Below, one piece after another: positions 1 to 16,288 of a stretch of 64,000 nt of DNA. The notes under the pieces are model-generated. The model was given only the letters and a program-made list of their open reading frames with translations. It did not search any database and was not told where the DNA came from. Location of the stretch: assembly GCA_030606215.1 (NCBI GenBank), contig JAUWGW010000003.1, forward strand, positions 1-64,000, given 5' to 3'. The DNA is from a bacterium. Lineage in GTDB: Bacteria; NPL-UPA2; JAUVJM01. How positions within the stretch are numbered: the stretch's first letter is position 1; every line of letters begins with the position of its first letter. Position numbers and translations under genes: made by a program.

Positions 1-68
1 CCGCGCGACCACCGTATCAAAGTTTTTCGTTCGTCGTCATTCAGTATGACTTTACAAGCAACTCGCAT
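1..68 (-). CDS. IS630-family transposase, N-terminal fragment (runs off the window)
   Basis: Reading leftwards from an ATG at 68, the frame is open to the window edge and begins MRVACKVILNDDERKTLIRW. This resembles the N-terminal helix-turn-helix of IS630/Tc1-type transposases, which typically starts with a short strand followed by 'L..EER..L..W'. A strong Shine-Dalgarno (GGAGGTG on the minus strand, 75-81) sits 6 bases upstream of the ATG and supports the start. Only about 22 codons are visible, so the DDE catalytic core and the far inverted repeat cannot be seen and I cannot say whether the element is intact. It borders the defence island, as insertion sequences often do. The family call rests on a short stretch. 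Confidence 0.55.
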   Translation of the reverse strand, partial: MRVACKVILNDDERKTLIRWSR

Positions 69-162: not shown

Positions 163-2106
163 ATGAGAATACACCGTGTGATTATTAATAATTTCCGTTC
201 AATTAAATATCTTGATTTCAAACCTGATAAAATCAATCTACTTATAGGAGGCAATAACTCTGGCAAAACAAATGTCCTCCAAGCATTGGATTTCGCACTC
301 AATCCTTACAAAAACTGGCATGAAGGCGTCGTTACTGAATATGACTTTTACAATAGGAATACTGAAGAGAAAGGAATTTTGAATGATGGGACAGAATGTA
401 CCGGAATCAATATAGAAGCTTGGCTCAGTGACTTTGTAAATGGAGAAGAATGCCAAAATGATTGGGATACCTGTTTGGAGCATATAAACAATAAGAATGA
501 AATTATTTCCTATGATGAAGAGGACAATGAGAATGCAGAAAAAATTCTGCGAGTTACTGCTGAATGTCATGCGGATCTAAAGCCGTTATTTTATTTCACA
601 AAACCAGATGTAGGGAAGCGACACTTTGCTCGTCGTGATAAAGAACAACTAGGATTCCACTTTGTTCCTGCTTATCGTAATCCTCTGTACGAATTGTCTT
701 TCTACCAAAATTCTTTTCTTTCAAAGTTACTTGAAAGGGAGGAACTCAAGGAAAAAATTGAAAAAGTCATTGAAGAAATAGGTCAGTCTCAAGTTGTATT
801 ATTTGAAGACGAAAAATTCAAGGAAAACTTTGAATCACTTCAAAAGTCAATACAGGACCTTAAGTTAATTTCACCTGAAACCGGTGCTATGGGATTAGAA
901 CCATTGGGAATTAGCGAGCGACGAACATTGCAGAATTTTGGGCTTGTATTTCGTCCGCAATCTACTGAAAGACCTGTGCCTCTGAAAAATCAAGGTTTAG
1001 GGGCGCAAAACGCAATGCTCATTTTGGCAATACTTCATACTATTGCAGCAGCAAAACATGAAAATTTAGTCCTCGCATTTGAAGAGCCTGAACAGAATTT
1101 AGAACCTTACTATCAACGACTACTTATAAAGAAGCTACTTAAACCAGCAACAAGAAATTTCCAAATTTTTATGACGAGCTATTCTCAAGATGTTATTAAA
1201 AGCTTTAGCTTTGCTAATACTTTCTTAGTTCAAAATCAAGTGACGAAACATGTTTTGCTTAAAATTTCTCAGGAGGAGAACACAACGCTGGAGTGGCGTA
1301 AGTTTCTTAATCATCTTGAAAGAAGAAACAAAGAAGAGGTGATCGGTGGAATATTAGCCCGGTTTGTCTTATTAGTCGAAGGAGAAGCAGAAAAAGGTGG
1401 ATTGCCAGTATTTTCACAACTAAGCAGTAGAGGATTTGACAACGTAGGAGTTGAGCTTATTTGGTGCGAAGGCGTTGGAGAAATGCCCAAATATGCAGAA
1501 TATTTTAAAAGGCTAAATATTCCTGTCATTGCTTTATGCGATAAAGATGAAAATCTATGTAGTAAGAAACAGAGAAATGGAATTGCTCAAAAAGCAGATT
1601 TAACAATACTCTGGACTAACTACGAAGAAGCCTTGCTGACTTCCCCAGAATTATTTTCATCTTCAAAATTTGCTGAAATCTGTTGTAGTGAATATGATTT
1701 CAATGAAAATAGAAATATATTTCTAAAAAACACTTTTGATGCAAAAGAAGTCCCTAATGAATTAAAAGAATTTTACGAGGAAGAAAAAGCTCAGCTCAAA
1801 ACTTGTTCTGATTTAGAGAAACTTCTGGGCATTCTGGAAAAAAATGATTTACTTTATTGTTATCAGAGATTTTTCCTTCACAATAGTCTTGCGGGTGTTC
1901 GACAAGCGCGTCTTGTGGCGAAAGAAATGTGCCGGGAGGATGAGAGGAATATTCCTTCCGCAATTTGTAAACTAATTGCTTTAACAATCGAATTTTGCGA
2001 AGGAATGCTTCATGGAAATAGTGGGGATGTAATTAAGGTAGGCGGTTCTGAAATAGCGAAAGTAATTCAGAATAATCCTTTTATCGTAGAGATCCTCAAT
2101 GGGTAA
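163..2106 (+). CDS. gajA: Gabija GajA: OLD-family ATPase/TOPRIM nuclease
   Basis: GajA is the DNA-nicking subunit of the Gabija anti-phage system: an ABC-type ATPase head regulates a C-terminal TOPRIM nuclease. Visible motifs are a P-loop GGNNSGKT at residues 29-36, a Walker B/D-loop FEEPEQNLEP near 305, the TOPRIM glutamate in LLVEGEAEK near 403 and the TOPRIM aspartates in ALCDKDEN near 458. The start has a GGGAGG ribosome site 10 bases upstream. The 3' end overlaps the next gene by 8 bases (ATGGGTAA), and that gene is a UvrD-like helicase. An OLD nuclease with a downstream UvrD-like helicase is the defining Gabija arrangement (class 2 OLD). At 647 residues it is somewhat longer than the well-studied Bacillus GajA; the extra length appears to lie C-terminal of the TOPRIM core. 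A lone class 1 OLD protein is unlikely given the partner. Confidence 0.9.
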   Translation: MRIHRVIINNFRSIKYLDFKPDKINLLIGGNNSGKTNVLQALDFALNPYKNWHEGVVTEYDFYNRNTEEKGILNDGTECTGINIEAWLSDFVNGEECQNDWDTCLEHINNKNEIISYDEEDNENAEKILRVTAECHADLKPLFYFTKPDVGKRHFARRDKEQLGFHFVPAYRNPLYELSFYQNSFLSKLLEREELKEKIEKVIEEIGQSQVVLFEDEKFKENFESLQKSIQDLKLISPETGAMGLEPLGISERRTLQNFGLVFRPQSTERPVPLKNQGLGAQNAMLILAILHTIAAAKHENLVLAFEEPEQNLEPYYQRLLIKKLLKPATRNFQIFMTSYSQDVIKSFSFANTFLVQNQVTKHVLLKISQEENTTLEWRKFLNHLERRNKEEVIGGILARFVLLVEGEAEKGGLPVFSQLSSRGFDNVGVELIWCEGVGEMPKYAEYFKRLNIPVIALCDKDENLCSKKQRNGIAQKADLTILWTNYEEALLTSPELFSSSKFAEICCSEYDFNENRNIFLKNTFDAKEVPNELKEFYEEEKAQLKTCSDLEKLLGILEKNDLLYCYQRFFLHNSLAGVRQARLVAKEMCREDERNIPSAICKLIALTIEFCEGMLHGNSGDVIKVGGSEIAKVIQNNPFIVEILNG

Positions 2107-3925
2107 TTTTGATATTACAAAAGATAAAAAGCCGATACTTGATCTTATTGAAAAAACCCTTGGCGGGAAGCGTTTAATTATCGTAGAGGCCCCGCCAGGT
2201 GCAGGAAAGACTCTCTTGAGCGTATTGTGTGCAAAAAAACTAATTGAGACAAGAAGCATTGAGGTCAATCAGAAAGTGCTTTTGATGACTTTTTCACGTA
2301 ATGCTCGAGCTCAGCTTGATAAGGAAGCAGAAATCGTGTTCGCTTCCAACAGAGAAAAATTAAAACAGATAGAGATTACAAATTTTCATTCTTTCTTCCA
2401 AAAATATGTCTGGGCATATCGTTCTTATCTTGGTTTACCACTTGAATTAAATTTGGTCTGGCCACAGAAGAGACAAAAACAAATTCGTAGTATCCTCTCC
2501 AGTTTATCAAATCCTCCAGAGAAAACAATTGAAGCTCTTTCATCCTGTTTGGAATTTCAGCCTTGTGGTTTTATTCCCCCTCATTGTCCTCAAAAATATC
2601 GTGGGGACATTTCAAAAATTAGAGAGCATATTCTTATGCTGAATAAAAAGGGGTATATCGCCCATGAGGATTTGGCATATCACTTTTATCTGTTACTCAA
2701 AAAGTCCCCTTTTATTCTCGATACATTGAGATTTAAATATCCTTTTCTAATCCTTGATGAGTATCAGGATTCTTCTGATTTTCAAGATTTAATCGTGCGG
2801 GAGCTATTGGGAGAAAGCAACAAGGCAATCGTTTTCGCAGATGATATGCAGATGATCCATGGTTGGAGAGGGGCATCTCCAGACCGTATTAAACATTTAA
2901 AAGGGGACTTTGATTGTTTTTCAAAAGAACTGAACCTGTTGCCCCGCTATCAAGACTGTCCAAGCTTGAAAAGTATCTTTGAAGAACTCCGAAAAGCATT
3001 GAAAAATAACAATTGCATAAGTAAGATCAATTGTAGGGACAATGTATTAGAATTAAGACAAGCTAATATTTCAAAGCAGGAGATTTTTAAAATACCCAAT
3101 GACTATAGGAAGGAAAGAGCAATCAACAGTTACATTGCCCAATCAGATGTCTTGGGTCTGGTTAAAAGTATAAGCAGGGATTCAAGCATAGCAATTCTCC
3201 TCCCTTTTAATGCAGATGTAAGCAACTTTAAGCGCATTTTTAGGGAGAAGAACTTACCGGTAAAAGAGATAAGCAAGGGAGACAAACAGCACAATTTCGT
3301 TGGATTGTTAATTGAAAGCGTCGAAATCTCTTCTGAGCAGGAAAGGAAAATCTTTGTCTTGGAAGCAATGCACTATATTGACTTCGCAAAGATTCGAGAA
3401 GGATTAAGTTGGGAAAATCGGTTAGCGGCGGTCAAGAAAAAGCCGTCCCTTAAAATTGCTGGAAATAAAGAAGATATTAGAAAAGATTTGAGGCTTGATG
3501 AGATTGTAGGAAACTCTCAAAACTTCAAAGAATTATTGATTTCACTATATCATTCTGTAGAGAAAAACAAGGCGCAGCTGACTATTGATTGGGATATATT
3601 TCGGATATTCAGCAAAGTAGTCAGAAAAATAGTAGCAATGGAAGATGTTGAACTTAAAAAATTGTTTTCCAATGTTCTCTTACAGGAACAATATATGACG
3701 GCACACAAGAAATTGAAAGGAATCTATGTACTAAATGTCCATCAGGCTAAGGGAAAAGAATTTGTTTGGGTAATATTACCCGATGTTACAGAAGGTACTT
3801 TTCCCTCAGATAATAATGACAAGAAGAAACTCTTCTATGTGGCTGTAACTCGGGCAAGGCGCAAAGTTGTTATTTATGCCCGGAACAACCAGAGCAAAAT
3901 TTTGGATATCTTTCGTTTTTCATAA
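2099..3925 (+). CDS. gajB: Gabija GajB: UvrD/PcrA-like SF1A helicase
   Basis: Second Gabija subunit. Family knowledge says GajB binds the GajA tetramer and activates nuclease function on sensing nucleotide depletion or phage DNA ends. Sequence shows an SF1A helicase core: Walker A APPGAGKT at residues 31-38, motif II LDEYQD near 219, motif III ADDMQMIHGWRG near 247, motif V LNVHQAKGKEFVWV near 547 and motif VI YVAVTRARRKV near 583. The ATG at 2099 lies inside the gajA stop, so translation is probably coupled. It has 608 residues, longer than the roughly 500 of Bacillus GajB; the additional material lies between motifs III and V (residues about 290-530), the region that carries 2B-like insertions in UvrD helicases. 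Few alternatives: a generic UvrD repair helicase would not normally sit in an operon with an OLD nuclease. Confidence 0.9.
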   Translation: MGNFDITKDKKPILDLIEKTLGGKRLIIVEAPPGAGKTLLSVLCAKKLIETRSIEVNQKVLLMTFSRNARAQLDKEAEIVFASNREKLKQIEITNFHSFFQKYVWAYRSYLGLPLELNLVWPQKRQKQIRSILSSLSNPPEKTIEALSSCLEFQPCGFIPPHCPQKYRGDISKIREHILMLNKKGYIAHEDLAYHFYLLLKKSPFILDTLRFKYPFLILDEYQDSSDFQDLIVRELLGESNKAIVFADDMQMIHGWRGASPDRIKHLKGDFDCFSKELNLLPRYQDCPSLKSIFEELRKALKNNNCISKINCRDNVLELRQANISKQEIFKIPNDYRKERAINSYIAQSDVLGLVKSISRDSSIAILLPFNADVSNFKRIFREKNLPVKEISKGDKQHNFVGLLIESVEISSEQERKIFVLEAMHYIDFAKIREGLSWENRLAAVKKKPSLKIAGNKEDIRKDLRLDEIVGNSQNFKELLISLYHSVEKNKAQLTIDWDIFRIFSKVVRKIVAMEDVELKKLFSNVLLQEQYMTAHKKLKGIYVLNVHQAKGKEFVWVILPDVTEGTFPSDNNDKKKLFYVAVTRARRKVVIYARNNQSKILDIFRFS

Positions 3926-4060
3926 GGTAAAAAGATGTTAGATACAACTACAAAGAATAAGGGGAAACAATGTCAAGTTTTGCATTAATGCATTTTGGAG
4001 AGCAAGAAGGAAAGGGAACGTTTCTATTTTTCATAGCTTTGAAAGAGGGAGGTGAGGATA

Positions 4061-4297
4061 ATGGCATTTTCTGATGAAGTAGTCGCACAGGCATGGAGAA
4101 GAGCTGGTGGAAGATGCGAATGCAGAAGAACAACACATGACCACAATTATGTGAGGTGTAATAAAGAATTAGTGTGGGAAAATAGAGGAAGAGAAGGTCG
4201 TGGTGCTTGGGAGGCTCATCATATAAGTAGCACTGGTGGCGATACACTTTCAAACTGTGAAATTCTTTGTTGGGATTGTCACCAGCAAACTTTCTGA
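4061..4297 (+). CDS. Small HNH-type endonuclease-like protein
   Basis: A 78-residue protein with a compact HNH beta-beta-alpha metal fold: paired cysteines (CEC and a later C) near the N-terminus, the HH pair in WEAHHISSTGGDTLSNCEIL, the conserved Asn eight to nine residues later, and a C-terminal CWDCHQ that supplies the final His. I chose ATG 4061 over the in-frame GTG nine bases upstream because GGAGGTG at 4047-4053 is optimally spaced. The domain is almost all there is; no DNA-recognition module is attached, unlike the HNH proteins of restriction systems. It lies 135 bases after gajB on the same strand, so it may be a cargo gene of the defence island rather than a Gabija subunit. Nuclease activity is inferred from motifs only. 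Confidence 0.7.
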   Translation: MAFSDEVVAQAWRRAGGRCECRRTTHDHNYVRCNKELVWENRGREGRGAWEAHHISSTGGDTLSNCEILCWDCHQQTF

Positions 4298-4460
4298 AGG
4301 CAATAAGAGTGAAGTCGTTAGAGCAATGAATCATCCAAAAAGTCCGTGGGCTTTACGGGTTAAGTGATGAGGGAGTTGCTCGGGTTGAAGGGAAACGCTA
4401 ATTATAAAATAGCTTGCAAAATAACCAATAAAAGGTTAAAAGACAAGGTATTGGAAAATT

Positions 4461-5297
4461 ATGATTACATTATCCTTTTATAATATTGATGAATTCTGTT
4501 CAAAAATAGATTTAAGTGTAGGGAGACCTGTTATTGACTTATCAGATGTTTCATTCGTTGAGCCTTATGCTATAATTTATCTTGGATTGTTTATGAGATA
4601 TTACAACTCACTTGGAAAATATTTTGATTGGCGAGATTCAAGTGATACAAAGGTTAGAAAATATTTATCTCGTATGAACTTTTATGAGAGGTTTAATTTT
4701 AGTAAAGATGTGATAAAAGAAACAAAGCTAATACGATTTACATCTAATACATCGTTTAATGACATTATTGATATAGAGAAAGATGTTTGCATGCCAGATT
4801 CTATTGCCAATGAATTGAGAGAATTGTTGATTCGGCAGTATGAAATAAATAATGTTAAATTTGATATTCCCGTTGTGTGCGAGATTACTGCTGAAATAAT
4901 TGATAATTTTATTCAGCACTCTGATGAAAACTTGGCGGTAATGACAGTTCAATATTTTCCTAAAAAGCACACTTTATCTATTGCAATTGGAGATTGTGGG
5001 ATTGGCATTAAGAAAAGCTTATCGTCTGTGTCAAGATATTCTCATGTCAGGAATTTGTCGGATGAGGATGCAATTGAGAAAGCTTTTGATTACTTAGTAT
5101 CAAGAAAAATGGAGGGAGGCACAGGATTAAGTGATATAAGAGATACCATCTTAGAGAAAAATGGAAGTCTATATTTTTCCTCTAATGAGGGCTTCTATAT
5201 AATAAAGGATAGGAAGATACAAAAAGGAAGCATGTTTTTTGAGTTACCTGGTGTTCAGATTGAATATATTTTCAAAGAGGAGGTAAATGGGCTATGA
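4461..5297 (+). CDS. STAS-like/GHKL ATPase protein (anti-sigma-factor-type ATPase domain)
   Basis: The 278-residue protein has two parts. Residues 1-100 (VIDLSDVSFVEPYAIIYLGL) look like a STAS-type fold of the kind found in anti-anti-sigma factors. Residues 130-240 carry a GHKL ATP-binding fold: N-box EITAEIIDNFIQHS near 145, G1 box IGDCGIGI near 175 and G2 box GGTGLSDI near 218. There is no histidine-kinase phosphoacceptor domain or membrane segment, so it resembles anti-sigma kinases (SpoIIAB/RsbW style) more than sensor kinases. The gene overlaps its downstream partner by four bases (ATGA), and that partner is itself STAS-like, suggesting a kinase/antagonist switch. It could regulate transcription or act as an effector within the surrounding defence island; no target sigma factor is visible here. 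Confidence 0.75.
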   Translation: MITLSFYNIDEFCSKIDLSVGRPVIDLSDVSFVEPYAIIYLGLFMRYYNSLGKYFDWRDSSDTKVRKYLSRMNFYERFNFSKDVIKETKLIRFTSNTSFNDIIDIEKDVCMPDSIANELRELLIRQYEINNVKFDIPVVCEITAEIIDNFIQHSDENLAVMTVQYFPKKHTLSIAIGDCGIGIKKSLSSVSRYSHVRNLSDEDAIEKAFDYLVSRKMEGGTGLSDIRDTILEKNGSLYFSSNEGFYIIKDRKIQKGSMFFELPGVQIEYIFKEEVNGL

Positions 5298-5698
5298 ATA
5301 AAGATATCACAATAGACGTGGCAAAACTTGCAAAGTCTACAATTACGAGAAACCGTGGAAATGAGGCATTTGGTAATTTAGAAAGCATTATCAAAAATAA
5401 TCCACCCGACGTAGTAACTATTGACCTGACAAAATCTGGTATGGTTTCTTTATCATTTCTTGATGGCATGATTGTTAATATGCAGAAAAAATTAGAATTA
5501 CGAAGAGTAAAACTTTGCTTTATTGTCAAACTTGAAGATGTGCTCAAGAAGTTAAGAAAAGTAGTAACACTCAGAAATTTCAAGGGATATTACAAATACG
5601 CTAATGAAGATGATGTCAAGGAAATTGAAAAAGTTGAGATGAATTCGAATATGCGTCCAGAAGTGGTTAAAAATAAAGAGAGCCTAATAAAACTGTGA
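5294..5698 (+). CDS. STAS-like protein, DUF4325-type
   Basis: A 134-residue protein beginning MNKDITIDVAKLAKSTITRN, a typical opening for DUF4325/STAS-like proteins. The segment PPDVVTIDLTKSGMVSLSFLDGM (residues about 38-60; key features are the IDL strand, a Ser-containing turn and the SFLD helix start) corresponds to the strand-turn-helix of STAS domains that is phosphorylated in anti-anti-sigma factors. The ATG overlaps the stop of the GHKL ATPase gene by four bases, so the two are very likely translated together and to interact. The C-terminal 40 residues are charged. Family members are often annotated as unknown; the pairing with a GHKL ATPase is the best functional clue and suggests a phospho-switch. 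Confidence 0.72.
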   Translation: MNKDITIDVAKLAKSTITRNRGNEAFGNLESIIKNNPPDVVTIDLTKSGMVSLSFLDGMIVNMQKKLELRRVKLCFIVKLEDVLKKLRKVVTLRNFKGYYKYANEDDVKEIEKVEMNSNMRPEVVKNKESLIKL

Positions 5699-5710
5699 TA
5701 GGTGATAATT

Positions 5711-5826
5711 ATGCCAGCGCATGACATAATTGATAATCGCAAAGAAAATTGCAGGAATGCAACGAAGTCTATTGGGCAGCCTGCGAGTTGGTAAAGAATA
5801 GGCTAGAAAAAGCAAAGAGTGTATGA
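5711..5826 (+). pseudogene. Joined remnants of two deleted genes (tentative)
   Basis: An ATG at 5711 opens a 27-codon frame MPAHDIIDNRKENCRN that stops at TAA. Its start closely resembles the opening of the PLD-helicase at 9182 (MSDVIDNRKVRLGD), so it may be the 5' stump of a second helicase of that type. Partly overlapping it, in another frame from about 5746, is an open stretch ending CELVKNRLEKAKSV before a TGA at 5824-5826; it looks like the C-terminus of some other coding sequence. The simplest reading is a deletion that fused a gene start to a gene end. The pieces are too short for a firm call. Confidence 0.3.
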
Positions 5827-5865
5827 AAAAAATAATTAGAGGCAAAAACGCAGGTAGTCATTAAA

Positions 5866-6963
5866 ATGGGGAAATTACATATATTCCTTTGTGCGCTAAT
5901 TACCATTATTTCTATATCATTTACTCTATATAGCGTCCGTTCGAGTCAAAAAAGACATTTCATCATAATTGGAATTGCATTGATTGTTACATTATGGGCG
6001 GCACTAGGATATTTGATGAATAAAAGACAGAGAGAAGAAATAGTCGAAGAAGTGAAAGAAGTTAAGAGAGAGATAGAAAATCTACCTCAAAGGTTGAGTA
6101 TTTTACTAAATCCAATAATTGAAGCAAAAATTGAGCGGAAAGAGGAGTTTAATAAACCTACTATGGGGTTTGAAGAAATGTTATTCTCAGAAGCACGAGA
6201 AAATCAAGTGTTCATTCATAAAAATTTAGGAATCTATTACTATAAAAGGAACGATTTTGGTATTGCTGAAAAGGAATTACAGAGAGCAATTCAATTCGAC
6301 CGAAAGGACATAGATAGTCATAGGTATTTGGGCATCATTTATAGCAAGAAACAAGATTTTAACAGGGCAATTTCTATATATCAAAAAATAGTGAACTTGA
6401 AACCCGATGTTTCCACTCTTGAAGAACAATTACAGCTTGCTGTTTTGTACGAATATATTGGTCGTGATGCTTCAGCTTTACAGTCAGCTTTGAAACTCTA
6501 TAATCGTATTATTGGATTTAATGATGCTTATGTTAAGCTTGCAAAAGACAGGATAGAATATATTAGGCCACAAATAGAATATGAATTCGAACGAAAGAGA
6601 AGAAGTGGAACTATGCCTGTAGGTTTGATCCCACCGATTGTGGTAATTAGTTTGCCTTCTCCGGGATCCAAATTTGCTCTTGGGAGAGAAATCATTCTAA
6701 AAGGAACAATTGCAAACCCCAGATATGGTAATATCATTGATTACTATGTTGTAGAATATAGAAATCTTAGTAAGGAGGACGATTCTTGGCAGATAATTAA
6801 AAGTGTTGACTTTCAGGGAGCAAAGGATGAAATCATTGGTGGGGTAATATGCAAATGGACACCTATAAGCCTTGGGAGATATCTTGTTAAGGTTATTGCT
6901 AAGGATTTAAATGGGCATGAGGCTTCTCATCAAATTCAAATAATGGTTCAACCAAAAGAATAA
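5866..6963 (+). CDS. Membrane-anchored TPR protein with C-terminal Ig-like domain
   Basis: The 365-residue protein has two hydrophobic segments (residues about 5-22 and 31-50), a charged coiled-coil stretch rich in E and K (about 53-90), and then tetratricopeptide repeats: LGIYYYKRNDFGIAEKELQRA and HRYLGIIYSKKQDFNRAISI are clear consecutive TPR units (about 125-195), followed by a less regular unit. After residue 250 comes a beta-rich region containing PPIVVISLPSPGSKF, GREIILKG and GRYLVKVIAKDLNGHEA, the pattern of an Ig-like/FN3-like fold. The two membrane segments likely form a hairpin leaving both the repeats and the Ig domain on one side. It follows the STAS/GHKL pair on the same strand. 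I do not recognise the family; a scaffold role is inferred from the TPRs. Confidence 0.6.
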   Translation: MGKLHIFLCALITIISISFTLYSVRSSQKRHFIIIGIALIVTLWAALGYLMNKRQREEIVEEVKEVKREIENLPQRLSILLNPIIEAKIERKEEFNKPTMGFEEMLFSEARENQVFIHKNLGIYYYKRNDFGIAEKELQRAIQFDRKDIDSHRYLGIIYSKKQDFNRAISIYQKIVNLKPDVSTLEEQLQLAVLYEYIGRDASALQSALKLYNRIIGFNDAYVKLAKDRIEYIRPQIEYEFERKRRSGTMPVGLIPPIVVISLPSPGSKFALGREIILKGTIANPRYGNIIDYYVVEYRNLSKEDDSWQIIKSVDFQGAKDEIIGGVICKWTPISLGRYLVKVIAKDLNGHEASHQIQIMVQPKE

Positions 6964-7046
6964 ATATTTAATCAACAGTGTTCAGAAACTATAGGATGCT
7001 GGAGCAGGTGTTAAGCTAGCAAAAAGTTAAGATGATGGAGTGGAAT

Positions 7047-8030
7047 ATGGCTACAAAGGTATTTATAAGTTGTGGGCAGGCAACAGATAGAGAAATTGAA
7101 ACAGCTAAGAAAATTAAAGAATGGTTAGAAAATAAAGAGATTGGTTTTGAAAAAGCATACGTGGCAATTAGAGAACAGGAGATGCAAGATCTCAATAGTG
7201 CCATTATCAATAACCTGGCAGATTCGGATTATTTCTTGTTCATAGATTTCAAGAGAGAAACCATCAATGGGGGAAACCTCTTCAAGAAAGTGGTTAACTG
7301 GTTGCTTGGTAAAAAAAGCTATAGAGGCTCCCTCTTTGCTCATCAAGAATTAGCGTTGGCTTATTATCTTGGTTTTGAGGATGTGATTTTTCTTCATCAA
7401 GAAGGTGTAATTTCGGAAGGTTTTTTGAAGAGTATTCAAGGGAATTCCATTCCGTTTAGAGGCTATGATGAGATATTAGAGATAGTAAAGGAGCAGGTTG
7501 GAAAAAGATGGGATAAAAATTATTCAAGGCACCTTGTTGTTGGAGATATTACAAAATCAGAGGGTTCTTACGGTGACCATTCAAGCGATGGGCAAAAACG
7601 TCAACAAATCTGGCATTGTAGAATAGATAACAGGAGGAAACGAGAAGCGGCGCAAAATGTTGTGGCAAGATTGAAAGAAATAAGGGATGAAAAAGGGGAA
7701 GTGAAAAGCTCGCCGGATAAACAAGCGCTCAAATGGGCTGGCGCTTATACGAGTTATTCTTATGTAATTCCTCCACAGTCTGATGGAACTTTTGATCTTT
7801 TTTGCACTTTCCCTTACAAGCTCACAGAGATCTATCTGCACAGTCTTTTAGACGTTAAACCCCGGGAACCCATTATTAGAAAAGCGGGAGAATTTTATCT
7901 CATATATCAAATATCCGCTATAAATTTTCCTCGGCTTGAGTTTTCTGTGAAACTAAATTCAGGGAAAATACCGCTTGAAGTTAATATCGTTAAGAGTTCC
8001 GATGGATCAGGGATTTCTCTTATTATGTAA
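7047..8030 (+). CDS. TIR-like domain protein of unknown function
   Basis: I took ATG 7047, which has GGAG at 7037-7040 (6-base spacing), rather than ATG 7032. The N-terminus, MATKVFISCGQATDREIE, followed by a helix, YVAIREQEMQDLNSAIINNL and SDYFLFIDFKRE, has the alternating strand/helix pattern of TIR and nucleoside-deoxyribosyltransferase-like Rossmannoid folds. A glutamate in the QELALAYYLGFEDVIF helix (about residues 103-118) is a candidate catalytic residue of the TIR NADase type. The second half (after about 175) is a separate, beta-rich domain with tryptophan- and tyrosine-rich strands that I cannot assign. TIR-like proteins in defence islands usually hydrolyse NAD or make nucleotide signals, but that activity here is inference. 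Confidence 0.55.
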   Translation: MATKVFISCGQATDREIETAKKIKEWLENKEIGFEKAYVAIREQEMQDLNSAIINNLADSDYFLFIDFKRETINGGNLFKKVVNWLLGKKSYRGSLFAHQELALAYYLGFEDVIFLHQEGVISEGFLKSIQGNSIPFRGYDEILEIVKEQVGKRWDKNYSRHLVVGDITKSEGSYGDHSSDGQKRQQIWHCRIDNRRKREAAQNVVARLKEIRDEKGEVKSSPDKQALKWAGAYTSYSYVIPPQSDGTFDLFCTFPYKLTEIYLHSLLDVKPREPIIRKAGEFYLIYQISAINFPRLEFSVKLNSGKIPLEVNIVKSSDGSGISLIM

Positions 8031-8230
8031 CAATCTGATTCCTGTAGGGAGAAATTCATCATTTTAGAGATAAACATCGCACGGGGCTTGAGTGTTGACT
8101 ACAATGTGTATGCGATTGACTACAAAATGTATATGGAGGTTGACCGTGTTAGAAAAAAGCTTGACGGCATGGATATATCTGAGTATAATGAATTTGAGTT
8201 CAAAAAAATGAATTTGAGTTCAAAATTATG
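8031..8230 (+). other. Open reading stretch between genes, with possible coding remnant
   Basis: After the TAA of the preceding gene, the same frame continues without a stop for about 66 codons to a TGA at 8228-8230, reading ...EINIARGLSVDYNVYAIDYK... and KKLDGMDISEYNEFEFKK. Composition looks coding-like but there is no good start codon with a ribosome site. It may be a degraded small gene (for example an antitoxin-like protein) or a chance opening. Near-repeats of TTGACTACAA appear at about 8093 and 8113 but do not form a convincing promoter. Confidence 0.25.
8187..8226 (+). repeat. 20-bp tandem duplication just upstream of the MNT gene
   Basis: Two adjacent 20-base units (8187-8206 and 8207-8226), starting AATGAATTTGAGTTC, differ only in the last base. 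The second unit ends directly before the ATG at 8228. This is a fresh-looking slippage duplication in the leader of the toxin-antitoxin genes and could change the spacing between ribosome-binding sequence and start. Confidence 0.85.
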
Positions 8231-8761
8231 AAATTAAGAGATTTCTTCTTTGGTACAAGCCAGCAAAAAATTCTAAAATTTTTAGCTGATTTTCCTAATA
8301 AGACCTTCTTTGAGCGGGAAATTTCTCAGAGGACAGGAGTAAGTCGGGGAGCAACCAATATCGCTTTAAAACAATTGGTTAAAGGAAATTTAATTATTTT
8401 AGAAAAGAGAGGAAGGATGTCTTTCTATTCTGTAAATTTGAGAAATCCTATCATAAGGGAATGGAAAGTTCTAAATAATGTTATTAAAATCCACTCATTA
8501 ATAAAAAGAGTAGCAAAAATAAGTGATAAAATTATCTTATTTGGAAGTGCGGCAGATGGTATAAATATTAAAGGGAGCGATATTGACCTTTTCGTTCTGA
8601 CCAACTTCTCTAAAGAGGTAAAAGAGATAATTTCTAAGGATAAGAAAAAAATTCAACTAATTGTCAAGAAACCTTTAGAATTTGTAGAGATGAAGTCAAA
8701 AGACTCTGTATTCTATGAGGAGATATTGAAAGGAGTTGTCTTATGGGAGAAGATGGAATAG
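8228..8761 (+). CDS. Winged-helix MNT-type nucleotidyltransferase (antitoxin-like)
   Basis: Residues 1-75 form a winged helix-turn-helix: FFEREISQRTGVSRGATNIA is the recognition motif region and the following RGRMSFYSVN is the wing. Residues 100-177 form a minimal nucleotidyltransferase: the GS motif in ILFGSAADG (G106-S107) and the metal-binding pair in KGSDIDLFVL (D118 and D120). In MNT-HEPN modules the MNT protein AMPylates the HEPN toxin and so silences it, and the winged helix may autoregulate the operon. The stop lies 19 bases inside the next gene, a HEPN protein, which strongly supports that pairing. No good Shine-Dalgarno precedes the ATG; a 20-bp duplication lies there instead. Confidence 0.82.
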   Translation: MKLRDFFFGTSQQKILKFLADFPNKTFFEREISQRTGVSRGATNIALKQLVKGNLIILEKRGRMSFYSVNLRNPIIREWKVLNNVIKIHSLIKRVAKISDKIILFGSAADGINIKGSDIDLFVLTNFSKEVKEIISKDKKKIQLIVKKPLEFVEMKSKDSVFYEEILKGVVLWEKME

Positions 8762-9189
8762 ACCATGAGTTTAAAAAGTGTCTGGCAAAAGGGAAATTAA
8801 GGGAATTTCCTAAAGGCAAAGGTCTCTTTCCCAAAGAATTAGAAACGGCAGAGAGAGATTTGGAAGAAGCAAAGGATAATTACAAAAATAAGAAGTTTAA
8901 ATGGGCTACTATTCAGGGATACTATGCAATGTTTCATACTGGAAGGGCATTAATTTATTTCAGGGGATACAGAGAAAGGAGTCATTATTGCTTAATTGTA
9001 GCGTTGAGAGCTCTATTTGTTTCTAAGCGAGCCTTGAGTGCTCAAATAGTGGAAATGTTGCAACAAGGAAAGAGATTGCGGGAAAGTGCCGATTACTACA
9101 ACGAGTGGTCTCAAGAAGGAGCTCGCAGAATAATTGAGAGTGCTGAAGAATTTATCAAAAAGACAAAGGGGATTTTGCGTAGTGAGTGA
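8743..9189 (+). CDS. HEPN-domain protein (putative RNase toxin of the MNT-HEPN pair)
   Basis: A 148-residue alpha-helical protein with the HEPN layout: helix WATIQGYYAMFHTGRALIYF (residues 54-73), followed by the catalytic loop FRGYRERSHYC with R74 and H81, which fits the Rx4-6H motif of HEPN ribonucleases. HEPN toxins cleave RNA (often tRNA) and are held inactive by their MNT partner. The gene overlaps the MNT gene by 19 bases and the downstream helicase gene by 8 bases, so all three are likely made from one transcript with coupled translation. Having the intact R and H argues that it is an active toxin, not just a binding domain. Confidence 0.82.
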   Translation: MGEDGIDHEFKKCLAKGKLREFPKGKGLFPKELETAERDLEEAKDNYKNKKFKWATIQGYYAMFHTGRALIYFRGYRERSHYCLIVALRALFVSKRALSAQIVEMLQQGKRLRESADYYNEWSQEGARRIIESAEEFIKKTKGILRSE

Positions 9190-12100
9190 CGTAATTGATA
9201 ATAGAAAAGTGAGACTTGGGGATGCGATAGGTAAAATTTTGCCAAATGCTGAGCGAGCAAAGTTTGCTGTAGGCTACTTCTTCCTATCCGGACTTGAGGC
9301 TATCCAAAAACATCTTGCTGGGGTATCGGAGCTAAGACTTCTTATTGGTAATACAACAAACCGGCAGACTTTAGAACAGATTAGCGAAGGGTATAAACGG
9401 TTGGACTTAGCCCAGCAGGCTATGGATGACATTACCAAGTTCTCCAAGAGAAGCGAGAAGAAACACCGCATAAGTGAGACAGCAGAAAACTTAAAGGAAG
9501 CAGTGGCATTGATGGACCAGACCAATGAAGGCGAAGAACTAGTGAACATCTTAATCAGACTGATTGAGGAGAAGCGGTTAAAGGTGAAAGTGTATACAAA
9601 GGGCAGGCTCCATGCCAAAGCTTATATCTTTGACTACAAGCAGGATGGAAGATATGAAAAAGGAATTGCGGTTGTCGGTTCGTCTAACCTCACGCTTTCA
9701 GGGATAGAGCACAATACAGAATTAAATGTTGTAGTTCAGGGAAATGACAATCATAGAGAGCTAACTAAGTGGTTTGAAGAACTCTGGAGTGAGGCAGAGG
9801 ATTTTGAAACTCATCTGATGAATGAATTGAAGCAGTCCTGGGCTGTTGTTCCAGCTACTCCTTATGACATCTATATGAAAACACTTTATGCTCTTGTAAG
9901 GGACCGTTTAGAAGAAGGAGAAGGAGCAGAGATTCTCTGGGATGATGAGATTACAAGAGATTTAGCAGATTTTCAAAAGGTGGCGGTTAGACAGTCCATT
10001 CAGATGATTCGGGATAATGGCGGATGTTTTGTATCTGATGTTGTAGGTCTTGGCAAGAGCTATATCGGGTCAGCAATTCTCAAACATTTTGAGCGAACCG
10101 AACATGCCAGACCTCTGATCATTTGTCCTAAGACTTTGGAGGATATGTGGGAAGGATATAATGAAGTTTATCACTTGAACGCGAGAGTTCTTCCCATGAG
10201 TTTACTTAAAGCAAAGGATGAGGAAGATATCAATATGCTCCTTGAGGATGTCAAATACAGGGACCGAAATGTAGTTCTTGTTGACGAAAGTCATAATTTT
10301 CGCCATCATACTATACAACGGTATCAGATTCTCCAGACATTCTTTTCAACTGGTAGAAAATGTTGTTTTCTAACTGCCACTCCACGGAATAAGACTGCGT
10401 GGGACCTCTATCACCAGATTAAGCTATTTCATCCCGATGATAAGACTGACTTACCCATTGAGCCTCCTGACCTGAAGCAATATTTCAAGGCAATTGAAAA
10501 AGGGGAAAGAAAGCTTCCTGATATTCTTGCTCACATTCTAATCAGAAGAACTCGGCGTCATATTCTTCGTTGGTATGGATATGCTGAAGATACCAGTCAG
10601 CCTTTAAGGGAACTCTCAGATACGGTTTGTCAGCCATATCTTGATGGCGAGAGAAGAGCTTATGTAATGGTTGGTGCAAAGCACCAATATTTCCCTAAGC
10701 GAGAACTTGAAACCATGAGATATAGTATTGAGAAGACATATAGAGGTCTTTATCAACAGATTAGAGGATACCTGGGACGCCCGAGAGGAGAAAGGTATAA
10801 GCCTAAACCGGGGGTAGAACTTACCTATGCTCGTTATGGACTGTGGCATTATGTTCATGAAGATAAAAGAAGGAAGAAACCTTATAGTGACCTTCATCGT
10901 GCAGGGATTAATCTAAGAGGAATTATCCGGGTATTGCTTTTCAAACGATTTGAATCAAGTGTCGCTGCCTTCAGAGAGACTTTAAGACGGCTTATCAGAA
11001 TTCACAGCGCTTTTCTGAAATCGCTTGAACAAGGGGTTATCCCGGCTGGAGACGACGCTCAGCAGCTTCTCTATGAATCAGATAAGATTAGTGAGGTTGA
11101 CCTGTTAGAACAATTACGAGAACTGAGCGGGGCATATGAATCAAAGGACTTTTATGTGGATGAGTTGAAAAAACACATCAAGGCAGATAAAGAACTCTTA
11201 GAGACCATGTTTTCCCTTGTTGAACCAATTACCCCCAAGAACGATGGCAAACTTCAGACACTGTTCTCAGGGATGCAAAACGAGCCTTTATGTAGGGGTA
11301 AATGCTTGATTTTCACCCAATATGCTGATACTGCAAGATACCTGTATGAAAATCTCAACCCGGGGGATAAACAACCAGATATAGATGTGATTTATGGAGC
11401 GGATAAAAGCAAAATTAGAATGGCAGGGCGCTTTGCTCCTGAGGCAAATCCTGAATATAAATTTCAGAAGGGAGAGCGTGAAGTCCGTATCCTGGTTGCC
11501 ACAGATGTGATGGCGGAAGGGCTCAACCTTCAAGACTGTGATAAGGTTATCAATTATGACCTCCATTGGAATCCTGTTCGGTTGATTCAACGTCTGGGGC
11601 GTATTGATAGAATCGGCACTGAGCATGATATAGTGTGGGCATTTAATTTTCTGCCGGAGAGTGAATTAGATAAAGGCCTTAGAATAACTGAGGTTTTAGC
11701 CCGACGCATTGAAGAAATACACGATACTATAGGGGAAGATTCGGCAATTCTTGATAAAAGTGAACAACTGAACGAAGAGGCAATGTATGCGATCTATGAA
11801 AAAAAGGGAGGACAACTTACCTTCTTTGAGGAGGACGAGAAGGAATTTATTGATTTAAATGAAGCTGAAGAAATGCTCAGGCAGATGCGGAGAGAAAGAC
11901 CTGAGGAGTTTGACAGAATAGCGCATCTGCATGATGGCATTCGGAGTGCAAGGGTATCTGATACAAAGGGGCATTATGTTTTCTGTCAAGCAGGGCGGTT
12001 TCAAAAGTTATATTTAGTGGATGCGAAAGGAAAAATCATCTCCCGTGATATCCCACGGGTTTTGGGGACTATTAGATGTTCGCCAGTTGAGCCAACGGAA

Positions 12101-12499
12101 AGCCTCCCGCATGGTTATAACGACAAAGTTATGAGAGTAAAACAATTATTTGAGGAGGAAATCAAACATCGTAGGGCTGAAAGAGAACATACTCTTTCAC
12201 TAACTCAGGCTCAGCGGTATGTCCTCCGGGAACTGCGTATATTGTTCCAGCGTGTTGAAGATGAGGACACTAAAGCTCAAATCAATATACTTGATAAGGC
12301 ATTTCGGGTGACACCGACGGTTGCTGTGAATAGAGAACTGAATTATCTAAGGAGGAATGGAATTGTCGGAGAAAGTCTTCTTAAGAATTTGACACGCATT
12401 TATCATCAACATAGTTTGAAAGAGCGTGTGGACCAAAAAGCTATTACGAGTGACAGTGAGATAATTCCCAGGATAGTTTGTAGTGAATGCTTGGTCTAA
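9182..12499 (+). CDS. Phospholipase-D nuclease domain fused to SNF2-type helicase
   Basis: I took GTG 9182 (MSDVIDNRKVRLGD) because the protein similarity begins there; an upstream open frame merely overlaps the HEPN gene. Residues 1-210 are a PLD-type nuclease domain with one HxK motif (HAKAYIF near 143) followed by GSSNLTLSGI. Residues 250-830 are an SF2/SNF2 helicase: VGLGKS P-loop near 288, DESH Walker B near 365, TATPRN motif III near 398, IFTQYADTARYLYENL in the second lobe and QRLGRIDRIG motif VI near 803. A long C-terminal region of about 270 residues follows. This resembles the helicase-nuclease proteins seen in restriction-like and DISARM-like loci, but no methyltransferase lies nearby. 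Its 8-base overlap with the HEPN gene makes it part of that operon. Target and mode are unknown. Confidence 0.85.
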   Translation: MSDVIDNRKVRLGDAIGKILPNAERAKFAVGYFFLSGLEAIQKHLAGVSELRLLIGNTTNRQTLEQISEGYKRLDLAQQAMDDITKFSKRSEKKHRISETAENLKEAVALMDQTNEGEELVNILIRLIEEKRLKVKVYTKGRLHAKAYIFDYKQDGRYEKGIAVVGSSNLTLSGIEHNTELNVVVQGNDNHRELTKWFEELWSEAEDFETHLMNELKQSWAVVPATPYDIYMKTLYALVRDRLEEGEGAEILWDDEITRDLADFQKVAVRQSIQMIRDNGGCFVSDVVGLGKSYIGSAILKHFERTEHARPLIICPKTLEDMWEGYNEVYHLNARVLPMSLLKAKDEEDINMLLEDVKYRDRNVVLVDESHNFRHHTIQRYQILQTFFSTGRKCCFLTATPRNKTAWDLYHQIKLFHPDDKTDLPIEPPDLKQYFKAIEKGERKLPDILAHILIRRTRRHILRWYGYAEDTSQPLRELSDTVCQPYLDGERRAYVMVGAKHQYFPKRELETMRYSIEKTYRGLYQQIRGYLGRPRGERYKPKPGVELTYARYGLWHYVHEDKRRKKPYSDLHRAGINLRGIIRVLLFKRFESSVAAFRETLRRLIRIHSAFLKSLEQGVIPAGDDAQQLLYESDKISEVDLLEQLRELSGAYESKDFYVDELKKHIKADKELLETMFSLVEPITPKNDGKLQTLFSGMQNEPLCRGKCLIFTQYADTARYLYENLNPGDKQPDIDVIYGADKSKIRMAGRFAPEANPEYKFQKGEREVRILVATDVMAEGLNLQDCDKVINYDLHWNPVRLIQRLGRIDRIGTEHDIVWAFNFLPESELDKGLRITEVLARRIEEIHDTIGEDSAILDKSEQLNEEAMYAIYEKKGGQLTFFEEDEKEFIDLNEAEEMLRQMRRERPEEFDRIAHLHDGIRSARVSDTKGHYVFCQAGRFQKLYLVDAKGKIISRDIPRVLGTIRCSPVEPTESLPHGYNDKVMRVKQLFEEEIKHRRAEREHTLSLTQAQRYVLRELRILFQRVEDEDTKAQINILDKAFRVTPTVAVNRELNYLRRNGIVGESLLKNLTRIYHQHSLKERVDQKAITSDSEIIPRIVCSECLV

Positions 12500-12586: not shown

Positions 12587-13210
12587 GTGACTGAGGAACA
12601 TAAAACTGAAGGGCATGAAGAGATAAAGGAAAATGTAGTTGAAAGTGAATCTACACCTGGGGAAAAGTTGGTTAAAGCATCTCAGGAAGGAGTGAAGAAG
12701 AAGACAGAGCGTAAGAGAACAGCGAAAATAAAAGTTTCGCGGGATGAATGGGGAAAGGTTCTCGAAAAAGCGCAGAAGGCAGATGAATATTTTGACCAGC
12801 TTCTCAGGTTGAAGGCTGAATTTGATAATTACCGCAAGCGGATGAACAGGGAAAGAGAAGAGTTTGCGAAATATGCCGCGGAGGAATTGATATGTGAAAT
12901 TCTTACTGTAGTTGACCATCTGGAAAATGCAATTTCGGCGTCCGGAAAGAGCGAAGATTATAAGGTATTAGTTGAAGGGGTAGAGATTACCAGAAAAGAA
13001 GCTCTGAGGATTCTCTGTCAGTGGGGATTAGAGGAAATCAAAGCGATTGGCGAAAAGTTTGATCCTGAGAAACATGAAGCAATTGAGTGTATTGATTGTG
13101 GAGAAGAAGAAGGTAAAATTGTGGAGGAGTTGAGAAAAGGATACTGTTTAAAAGGTAAACTTATACGGCCATCTATAGTTAAGGTGGCAGGGAGGAACAA
13201 GAATGGGTAA
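12587..13210 (+). CDS. grpE: GrpE nucleotide-exchange factor
   Basis: GrpE releases ADP from DnaK and resets the chaperone cycle in the cytoplasm. The protein has 207 residues: an acidic/basic low-complexity N-terminus (1-60), the long dimerising helix with [20 protein letters not shown] (about 80-100), and a C-terminal beta-domain ending [15 protein letters not shown], a typical GrpE ending. The start is GTG 12587 with GGAGGA 6 bases upstream. The 3' end overlaps dnaK by 8 bases (ATGGGTAA), and a near-consensus promoter lies upstream, so it heads the grpE-dnaK-dnaJ operon. hrcA, often first in this operon, is absent. Confidence 0.95.
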
Positions 13211-15143
13211 GGTAATAGGGATTGACTTGGGCACAACAAACTCGGTTGTTGCTATTATGGAAGCGGGTAAACCTACGGTGATTGTGAATCCTGAGGGCAT
13301 CCGCACTACACCCTCTGTTGTGGCTTTCACAAAGAGCGGTGAGAGGTTGGTAGGACTGACAGCAAAGAGGCAGGCTGTTACGAACCCGGAAAATACTGTG
13401 TTTTCCATTAAACGATTTATGGGGCGGAAGTTTGATGACTCTGAGGTTGTCAGGGCAAAGAAAATAGTCCCATATCGAATGTCTGAGGCAGGCAATGGTG
13501 ATGTTCAGGTAGAAGTTGGCGGTAAAGCTTACAGCCCGCCTGAAATTTCTGCAATGGTGCTTCAAAAGATGAAGCAGACTGCAGAAAATTACCTCGGTGA
13601 GAAAGTTACCCAGGCAATTGTTACAGTCCCTGCATATTTCAATGACAGCCAGCGCCAGGCAACAAAGGATGCCGGTAAGGTTGCAGGGCTTGAAGTCCTG
13701 CGGATAATAAATGAGCCCACTGCGGCTTCCCTTGCTTATGGATTGGAGAAGAAAAAAGAAGAGAAAATTGCGGTATTTGATTTAGGGGGCGGAACTTTTG
13801 ACATCTCAATCCTTGAACTTGGAGAAGGCGTTTTTGAAGTAAAGGCTACGAATGGGAATACTTTCCTTGGAGGGGATGATTTTGACCAGAGAATCATTGA
13901 CTGGCTGGCAGATGAATTCAAGAAAGAGCAGGGGATTGATTTGAGAAATGACAGGATGGCCCTGCAGAGGTTGAGAGAAGGTGCGGAAAGGGCAAAATGC
14001 GAACTTTCCAGTTCACTCCAGACGGAGATAAACTTACCTTTTATCACTGCTGATGCGAGTGGTCCGAAACATCTCAGCAGGACTCTGACAAGAGCAAAAC
14101 TTGAGCAGTTGACAGCTGACCTTGTGGAGAAGGTTGAGGAACCGTGTCGTCAGGCGCTTAATGATGCAAAACTTTCATCCGGTGATATTGATGAAGTTAT
14201 TCTCGTTGGAGGTCAGACGAGGTCTCCTGCTGTTCAGGAAAAAGTGAAGGAGATTTTTGGCAAGGAGCCTCATAAAGGAGTAAATCCGGATGAGGTTGTA
14301 GCTGTTGGAGCGGCTATTCAAGTGGGTGTGCTTGGCGGCGAAGTGAAGGATGTGCTTCTCCTGGATGTAACTCCACTTTCCCTCGGCATAGAAACTCTTG
14401 GTGCAGTTTTCACAAAGCTAATTGAGCGTAATACAACAATCCCGACTAAGAAGAGTCAGATTTTTTCTACAGCGGCGGACAGTCAACCTGCCGTGACCAT
14501 ACATGTTCTCCAGGGAGAACGTGGAATGGCGGCTGACAACAGGAGTCTTGGGCGGTTTGACCTGGTTGGGATACCACCTGCGCCTCGTGGTGTTCCTCAG
14601 ATAGAGGTTGCTTTTGACATTGACGCTAATGGTATTGTCCATGTTTCCGCAAAAGACCTTGGCACGGGAAAAGAACAGAAGATAAAGATTCAACCATCAA
14701 GCGGTTTGACAGAAGAGGAAATAGAGAAGATGAGGAAATCTGCTGACGCTCACGCTGAGGAGGACAGGAAGAAAAGAGAACTGGCTGAGGCGAAAAACCA
14801 GGCTGATAATCTGATATATACTACGGAAAAATCTCTCAAGGATATTGGTGATAAAATAGAGCCTGCTGAGAAGGAGAAGATAAGCACAGCTCTTGATAAG
14901 GTGAAAGAAGTCGTTAAGGGTGAGGATGCAGGAGAGATCAAGAAAGCGTGTGAAGAGTTAACGCAGGCTTCCCATAAATTAGCTGAGGCTATATACCAGC
15001 AAGCGGCTGCACAGCGTGAGAAGGAGGGGAAAGAGGAACCGGGGAAAAAAGAAGAGCCCGGGAAAGAAGATAAAGGGAAGAAAGAAGATGTAGTAGATGC
15101 GGAATATAAAGTTGAAGATGAGGAAGAAAAGAAGGGAAAATGA
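13203..15143 (+). CDS. dnaK: Chaperone DnaK (Hsp70)
   Basis: 646-residue Hsp70. The nucleotide-binding domain opens with [11 protein letters not shown], carries the [14 protein letters not shown] and [13 protein letters not shown] signatures and [14 protein letters not shown]; the linker [15 protein letters not shown] leads into the substrate-binding domain from about residue 385. The C-terminal lid ends in an acidic/lysine-rich tail (EDEEEKKGK). It is full length with no missing key residue. Start ATG 13203 overlaps the grpE stop and the 3' end overlaps dnaJ by four bases (ATGA), giving a tight grpE-dnaK-dnaJ operon. Role: ATP-driven folding and stress protection together with its two neighbours. 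Confidence 0.98.
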
Positions 15144-16288
15144 AGCGCGACTATTATGAAGTGCTTGGTGTGAGCAGGGATGTGAGTGAAGAAGAGATAA
15201 AAAAAGCTTACCGCAAGCTTGCGGTCAAGTACCATCCCGACAAGAATCAAGGCAGTAGAGAAGCAGAGGAGAAATTCAAAGAAGTTTCTGAGGCGTATGA
15301 GGTGCTTCGCGACCCTAAACTGCGTGCTCAGTATGACAGGTTCGGACATGAAGGTGTGCGCCAGGAATTCGCGCGAGCCGGGGCGGGCGGATTTGGTGGA
15401 CTTGGTGATGCTTTCAGAACGTTTGAAGAAGTTTTAAGAGAGTTTGGCGGGGGATTTGGCGGGGTTGATGATTTTTTTGGCGGAACGCGCACAGGAGAAT
15501 TTGTCGGTGAGAGAGGTGCTGACCTACAGTATGAACTTGGATTAACTCTTGAAGAGGCTGCGTATGGGACAGAGAAAAAAATCAGCATTCCAAGACTTGA
15601 GCAATGTCCTGAGTGTAAAGGTAGTGGTGCAAAGCCCGGGACAGGAAAAACTGTCTGCCCTGTGTGCCAAGGGCATGGGCAGGTGAGGAATCAAGTGGGT
15701 TTCTTCAGTCTGGCGCAGACCTGCAGTAATTGTAGAGGGGCTGGGGAGATAATAAAATCACCCTGTCAGAAGTGCCGTGGTCAGGGTAGAGTTCGGCACA
15801 GGCGCGATATCAAGGTAAAGGTACCGCATGGTATTGATACCGGCTCCCGATTGAGGATTGTGGGTGAAGGTAATGCTGGTTTAAGAGGGGCTCGTCCTGG
15901 GGATTTATATGTGGCGATACAGATTCTGCCCCATGAGATTTTCGAGCGGCATAATGATGACCTGTACTGCCGTGTGCCAATAAGTTTTTCTCAGGCGGCG
16001 CTTGGAACAGAAGTTGTTGTGCCAACTCTGAATGGCAAATTGAGAATGACAGTTCCTGCCGGCACTCAGACTGGAAAGACTTTCAGGGTCAGGGGGAGAG
16101 GGATTCCCCACCTGCACGGCTATGGCAGGGGAGATGAATATGTTGAAGTAGTGGTTGAAACTCCGACTAAGTTGACTAAGAGACAAAAGGAATTGTTGAG
16201 AGAAATGGCTGAATCTGAAGAAGAGGCATACCCGCTCAGAAAAAGTTTCATAAACAAAGTAAAGAAGCTGTGGGAAAAGAAAACTTAA
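15140..16288 (+). CDS. dnaJ: Chaperone DnaJ (Hsp40)
   Basis: 382-residue class A J-protein that delivers clients to DnaK and stimulates its ATPase. Residues 1-70 are the J domain with the HPD triplet in YHPDKN; a Gly/Phe-rich linker follows (about 75-120); the zinc domain has four CxxCxGxG units ([32 protein letters not shown]) at about 155-215; the C-terminal beta-domains run to the end. Complete and canonical. It overlaps dnaK by four bases and ends just before a fold-back repeat that separates it from rsmE. Confidence 0.97.

Follow-up and report, generated by a model that had tools for sequence, protein, structure and literature searches.

SNF2 motors translocate along DNA, HKD nucleases cleave it as dimers, and type IIG-like methyltransferases mark adenine. 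BREX-related (BR) type 2 systems carry DUF499 and DUF3780 beside an HKD-SNF2 helicase and a methyltransferase (MTase) (PMC12839542). A toxin-antitoxin (TA) pair can also be embedded in a restriction-modification (R-M) operon: in the type I R-M island (RRDM) of EPEC, DarTG2 is placed between HsdS and HsdR, and this island protects E. coli against phages (PMC12255303). As for the TA pairs themselves, two reports describe HEPN RNases that are nucleotidylated by MNT antitoxins (PMC7641770, PMC11586414), and the PADLOC candidate system PDC-M05 is described as TA-like, unverified and archaeal-enriched (PMC12988326).

Here we describe an operon that joins a winged-helix (wHTH) MNT nucleotidyltransferase, a HEPN protein and a PLD-SNF2 helicase-nuclease (Table 1). 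It lies in the window, the stretch of 64,000 nucleotides of bacterial DNA that was analysed, which starts at the left end of its contig. The locus probably belongs to an R-M-like system, built from an Eco57I/type IIG-like MTase and the PLD-SNF2 protein, with an exchangeable slot for TA or abortive cargo that is occupied here by a type VII-like MNT-HEPN pair. In our best reading, what is new is that the known principle of R-M with an embedded TA pair appears with replaceable cargo, and with the MTase missing from the assembled sequence. A literature search of partial coverage found no description of the MTase-slot-PLD/SNF2 arrangement and no experimental work on a member of the family.

Table 1. 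Coordinates of the operon genes, their overlaps and their motifs in the window
Feature	Position	Strand	Remarks
wHTH-MNT nucleotidyltransferase, putative antitoxin	8228..8761	+	177 aa; winged helix ~residues 10-65, catalytic domain 88-175
MNT catalytic motif GS-x10-DxD	8543..8587	+	residues 106-120, intact
AAAGGAG, Shine-Dalgarno-like	8729..8735	+	7 nt before HEPN start; read from sequence
MNT/HEPN overlap, 19 nt	8743..8761	+	
HEPN, putative toxin, AF0298-like subclass	8743..9189	+	148 aa; PF05168 E=1.5e-16
HEPN R77...H81, alternative histidine in the helix 2-3 loop, end of the predicted 'Rx6H'	8971..8985	+	
HEPN R113-ESAD-Y118, homologous to canonical Rx4-6H position, H absent	9079..9096	+	
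HEPN/helicase overlap, 8 nt	9182..9189	+	
PLD-SNF2 helicase-nuclease	9182..12499	+	1105 aa; GTG start at 9182
PLD HxKxxxxD (HAKAYIFD) ... GSSN motif	9611..9688	+	PF13091
Walker A GLGKS	10046..10060	+	columns invariant in 22 orthologs
DESH (motif II)	10283..10294	+	
QRLGRIDRIG (motif VI)	11588..11617	+	

The overlapping three-gene operon of the original prediction holds in its coordinates, its overlaps and its domains (ORFs, Pfam). The proposed winged-helix MNT has both a winged helix and Polbeta/NTP_transf_2 domains, with Pfam matches to PF18765 (1.2e-10), PF01909 (4.3e-09) and MarR_2 (1.4e-04), and the proposed helicase with an N-terminal HxK phospholipase-type nuclease has a PLDc_2 match (1.8e-13) followed by SNF2 and Helicase_C. 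The G, S, D and D of the MNT motif are invariant across nine aligned MNTs, and the protein falls below the NCBIfam MntA cut-off (34.8 vs 60). Like type VII TA systems (MntA-HepT), the window pair is adjacent and antitoxin-first, combines a GSx10DxD MNT with a HEPN fold, and keeps a tyrosine at the HEPN catalytic position; unlike them, its HEPN is a PF05168 protein without the canonical Rx4H and its MNT has an N-terminal winged helix. Both proteins also match PDC-M05 (M05A at 1e-20, M05B weakly at 4e-05), but no helicase is named in the description of that system beside its nucleotidyltransferase and HEPN protein. The overlap between MNT and HEPN is ordinary, with the majority of related pairs overlapping too.

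An intact Rx6H motif had been assigned to the HEPN protein, which proved to be a misassignment. The stretch concerned, FRGYRERSH, falls between helices 52-73 and 93-114 of the predicted fold (pLDDT 84), with H81 in the loop joining helices 2 and 3; the canonical site is elsewhere. At that site, the end of helix 3, Rx4-6H is absent and the residues read R113-E-S-A-D117-Y118, as in AF0298 (2HSB), the closest solved fold (sequence match 1.8e-07). R113 and Y118 are conserved in all 18 aligned proteins found via the window MNT and in 27 of 28 other aligned relatives. Anantharaman et al. 2013 (PMC3710099) describe the AF0298-like HEPN subclass: several cases have D at the position of H, and a different conserved H, supplied by the helix 2-3 insert, may take over its role. 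Because the canonical histidine is missing, RNase activity of the window protein rests on this alternative-histidine proposal. The HEPN may thus be active, not through the motif first named, and its proposed role as an abortive arm under MNT control is plausible.

In the helicase, the motifs HxKxxxxD (residue 144), GSSN (166), GLGKS (289), DESH (368) and QRLGRIDRIG (803) are intact, and the predicted model (pLDDT 74) resembles RapA and other SNF2 motors. Decay of the gene was considered and rejected, since none of the 204 columns invariant in 21 orthologs is changed in the window copy. The best profile matches are PADLOC C3a139 'HKD+Snf2' (5e-85) and the NCBIfam anti-phage PLD protein NF042964 (1e-47), but the curated cut-off of the latter is missed (163 vs 1100 bits). 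The helicase also matches PADLOC PLD_Helicase and DrmD, the DrmD match (4e-45) reaching 154 bits vs a cut-off of 610. DISARM class 1 (DrmD-DrmMI) likewise pairs an SNF2 helicase with a large adenine MTase, both from the broad families seen here, whereas the window family has the PLD domain on the helicase itself. Neither DrmA nor DrmB was seen next to the operon, where the only trace is a partial DrmA-profile match of a 278-aa ATPase-like protein, and the sole MZB (DUF1998) place in the genome is on another contig. BR type 2 is similar in that an SNF2 helicase with an N-terminally fused HKD nuclease accompanies an N6-MTase (PMC12839542); it differs in that the MTase of the relatives here is Eco57I/IIG-like, and a Pfam search that covered the operon plus its four upstream genes found no DUF499 ATPase, N6-MTase or DUF3780. 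The DarTG2 island of EPEC resembles the present arrangement in that a TA pair precedes the gene of the restriction subunit inside an R-M operon, but its R-M class and TA are others, and the slot content of the window family varies.

A two-sequence helicase alignment, used in a single scan of genome contigs, yielded the ortholog set: 80 genome loci (designated by L numbers) with an orthologous helicase of 46-73% identity over the full length, spanning Chloroflexota, Deltaproteobacteria, Nitrospirae, Verrucomicrobia, Poribacteria, Cyanobacteria and others, and further copies on two viral contigs. An Eco57I/type IIG-like MTase (PF07669 8e-33; PADLOC REase_MTase_IIG, DrmMI-like) lies upstream on the same strand in 43 of the 46 loci whose upstream sequence extends over 5 kb or more. 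Three loci at first seemed to be without it (L055, L070 and L106); the upstream sequence of L106 is only 5.4 kb, and in L055 a 44th MTase became visible ~8 kb upstream once 9 kb was read (L191).

Between the MTase and the helicase is a slot of variable content. It is empty in 13 loci, where the MTase ends at or near the helicase start, so the module is dispensable; in the remaining loci, a gap of ~0.6 to 8 kb is filled with other genes. At least 10 unrelated module types were found there, as typed by Pfam, clustering and profile search, although the names TIR, OLD, PIN (in part) and reverse transcriptase were given by eye from translations and not by family match. MNT and HEPN genes occur as wHTH-MNT with HEPN, as MNT with HepT, and as HEPN with MNT in the reverse order. 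The other contents are AbiEi/AbiEii, PIN proteins, Fic with a TIR-like protein, a nucleoside deoxyribosyltransferase, an OLD-like ATPase, Schlafen-AlbA, AAA_14-DUF4143, a YhcG nuclease and a reverse-transcriptase-like gene. Panacea proteins precede the helicase in two contigs, both of which end before an MTase could be seen. On the helicase tree, the presence of MNT/HEPN requires at least 9 gains or losses, and the cargo type at least 25 changes. In L037, the MNT stands alone and the HEPN is cut to its first residues; a further small gene pair follows (L037:5311-5865), which by eye looks like another TA, DUF4258/DUF2283-like.

How might such a locus work? The operon anatomy, the family context, the exchange of slot contents and the conserved motifs are observed; for an R-M-like system with a cargo slot, we infer DNA cleavage, nucleotidylation, RNase action and a backup or addiction role as follows. 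The core would consist of an adenine MTase and the PLD-SNF2 protein, the latter serving as the DNA-cleaving motor subunit: its SNF2 motor would translocate on DNA and its HKD nuclease dimer would cut unmarked DNA. The slot that separates these core genes within the operon takes interchangeable TA or abortive-infection modules. In the window copy, the MNT would be made first, bind DNA by its winged helix and nucleotidylate the HEPN to keep it silent. If gene expression is stalled by infection, or if the locus is lost or inhibited, HEPN that is left unmodified would cleave RNA and arrest the cell, which would both back up restriction and make the locus hard to lose.

It is possible, if in our judgement doubtful, that the TA module serves only to keep the defence island from being lost, with no immune role. 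Such pure addiction would agree with the classical TA modules that swap in the slot (PIN proteins, Fic, Panacea, AbiE, MNT-HEPN) and with the second TA-looking gene pair of L037 where the HEPN is cut away. However, immune-type effectors that lack an addiction logic occupy the slot as well (OLD-like, Schlafen-AlbA, TIR-like, YhcG nuclease, reverse-transcriptase-like), so backup immunity fits better.

The observation that no MTase is nearby is correct for the assembled window but fails as a property of the system, whose other members nearly all have an Eco57I-type MTase. No MTase was found in the 9.18 kb from the contig start to the helicase, a search bounded by the contig edge, and a blastp comparison with the ORFs from every locus revealed no MTase remnant between 8031 and 8227. 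A profile of six family MTases detected no cognate MTase elsewhere in the genome, which is rated 93% complete; it scored only two MTases, those of contigs 5 and 21, each partnered by another PLD helicase, the best stretch reaching 167 bits. The source genome has two further PLD-SNF2 helicase genes (L123:5649-12307 and L124:5905-12680), each directly followed by an Eco57I-type MTase. With no cognate MTase assembled, self-protection would come from an unassembled or non-cognate MTase, or would have been lost.

Because the window starts at the left end of its contig, the main genes from 163 to 12499 all point in the same direction (+ strand), and long slots of 6-8 kb exist elsewhere (L059, L108; L191), the MTase could lie beyond the contig edge. 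The stretch from 163 to 12499, with Gabija, four genes, MNT and HEPN, would then be one long slot of a complete system. Against this stand the lack of a cognate MTase in a genome of that completeness and a transposase-like minus-strand ORF start at the contig edge, and we regard the long slot as conceivable rather than likely. That ORF start (MRVACKVILNDDERKTLIRWSR, window 1-67) by eye resembles an IS630-type transposase. With no MTase in the 9.18 kb upstream and no cognate copy in the genome, the R-M part of our reading may also not apply here. A derivative free of MTase, in which the TA pair controls an intact restriction helicase-nuclease and the locus works without a DNA mark, seems distinctly improbable.

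The upstream region contains other genes of interest. A Gabija-like pair occupies window 163-3925 (GajA, 3e-59; GajB, 5e-50), which places the operon in a defence island. Window 4461-5698 encodes a HATPase-like protein (the partial DrmA-profile match, 5e-11) and then a STAS-like DUF4325 protein, both weak matches. The 332-aa protein of window 7032-8030 has no match in Pfam, PADLOC, NCBIfam or PDB, and its start is TIR-like by eye.

Is the MNT-HEPN pair beside the helicase by chance, and where did it come from? The original prediction would have been undone by a helicase only incidentally next to such pairs, and the neighbourhood statistics upheld the association in 17 loci from several separate clades. 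MNT/HEPN modules lie no more than 1.3 kb upstream of the helicase in these 17 loci (90 kb), vs 1 match in the other 651 kb of flank; within-pair matches and related loci are not independent, which makes a binomial p too small, but the contrast is still large. The association is thus real. The pairing is, however, not obligate: the ~1 kb flank past HEPN contains the helicase in none of 29 inspected loci of the TA family, and none of 11 close relatives of the window pair is next to it. These nearest relatives are stand-alone, mostly overlapping pairs with 33-46% identity in MNT.

A common origin of the window pair with the cargo of other loci was rejected by the AU test (p-AU 1.2e-8 for MNT, 1.1e-4 for HEPN), with a near set that was picked by similarity to the window; a first set of sequences for the MNT and HEPN trees had put the window on long branches and was replaced by one with nearer relatives. 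Since the clade with sister-locus cargo is rejected although the window helicase shares 70-71% identity with those of sister loci L037 and L098, the window pair was recruited separately into the same position; by its sequence relationships it comes from a lineage of stand-alone TA pairs. In L148:3-2506, a stand-alone-type wMNT-HEPN pair directly follows an MTase-profile match (2e-17), with no helicase in view.

These relationships bear on the idea of a composite defence system, of which the recurrent association of MNT/HEPN with the helicase stands, whereas a dedicated three-part machine probably does not exist. In such a machine, the helicase-nuclease would sense foreign DNA, signal via the MNT and release the HEPN. 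Overlapping starts and recurrence of the association in separate clades speak for it, but the same helicase occurs with unrelated TA types or with none, the window pair differs from the pairs of sister helicases (AU p of 1e-8 for MNT and 1e-4 for HEPN), and its relatives stand alone, which leaves the proposal unlikely. That a mobile TA pair merely landed before the helicase gene is very improbable: the TA family is common (a related MNT is present in 71 of 386 genomes) and most of its members stand alone, but the MNT/HEPN density in the slot is far above that of the flanks, recruitment took place in several clades, and the HEPN overlaps the helicase start.

If the R-M-like reading with exchangeable cargo is true, one backbone across many phyla offers a plug-in slot for suicide modules. 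The family would then be a natural experiment on the coupling of restriction and abortive infection, in which the same helicase occurs with MNT-HEPN, AbiE, PIN, Fic, OLD or nothing, and reading the slot would be a route to new toxin and immune genes. The window copy in turn raises the question: can such a nuclease stay intact without its methyltransferase?

Several minor observations were made in the related loci and around the operon. In L070, an OLD-like ATPase and a UvrD-like helicase (L070:9940-13048), Gabija-like by eye, lie directly downstream of the MTase-less orthologous helicase. A sigma-70-like protein is encoded directly upstream of the helicase in L192 (reverse strand, 7636-9039) and in L102 (6227-6976); that of L192 comes after a region resembling an MTase N-terminus, and no MTase was seen there. 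A 1085-aa ORF with an Eco57I match (L125:3373-6630) lies within an apparent V-type ATPase operon. In the window, a short direct repeat, ATGAATTTGAGTTCAAAA, is present in two copies at 8188-8225, just 5' of the MNT start, and grpE-dnaK-dnaJ-like genes, recognised by eye from translations, follow directly 3' of the helicase (12587-16288).
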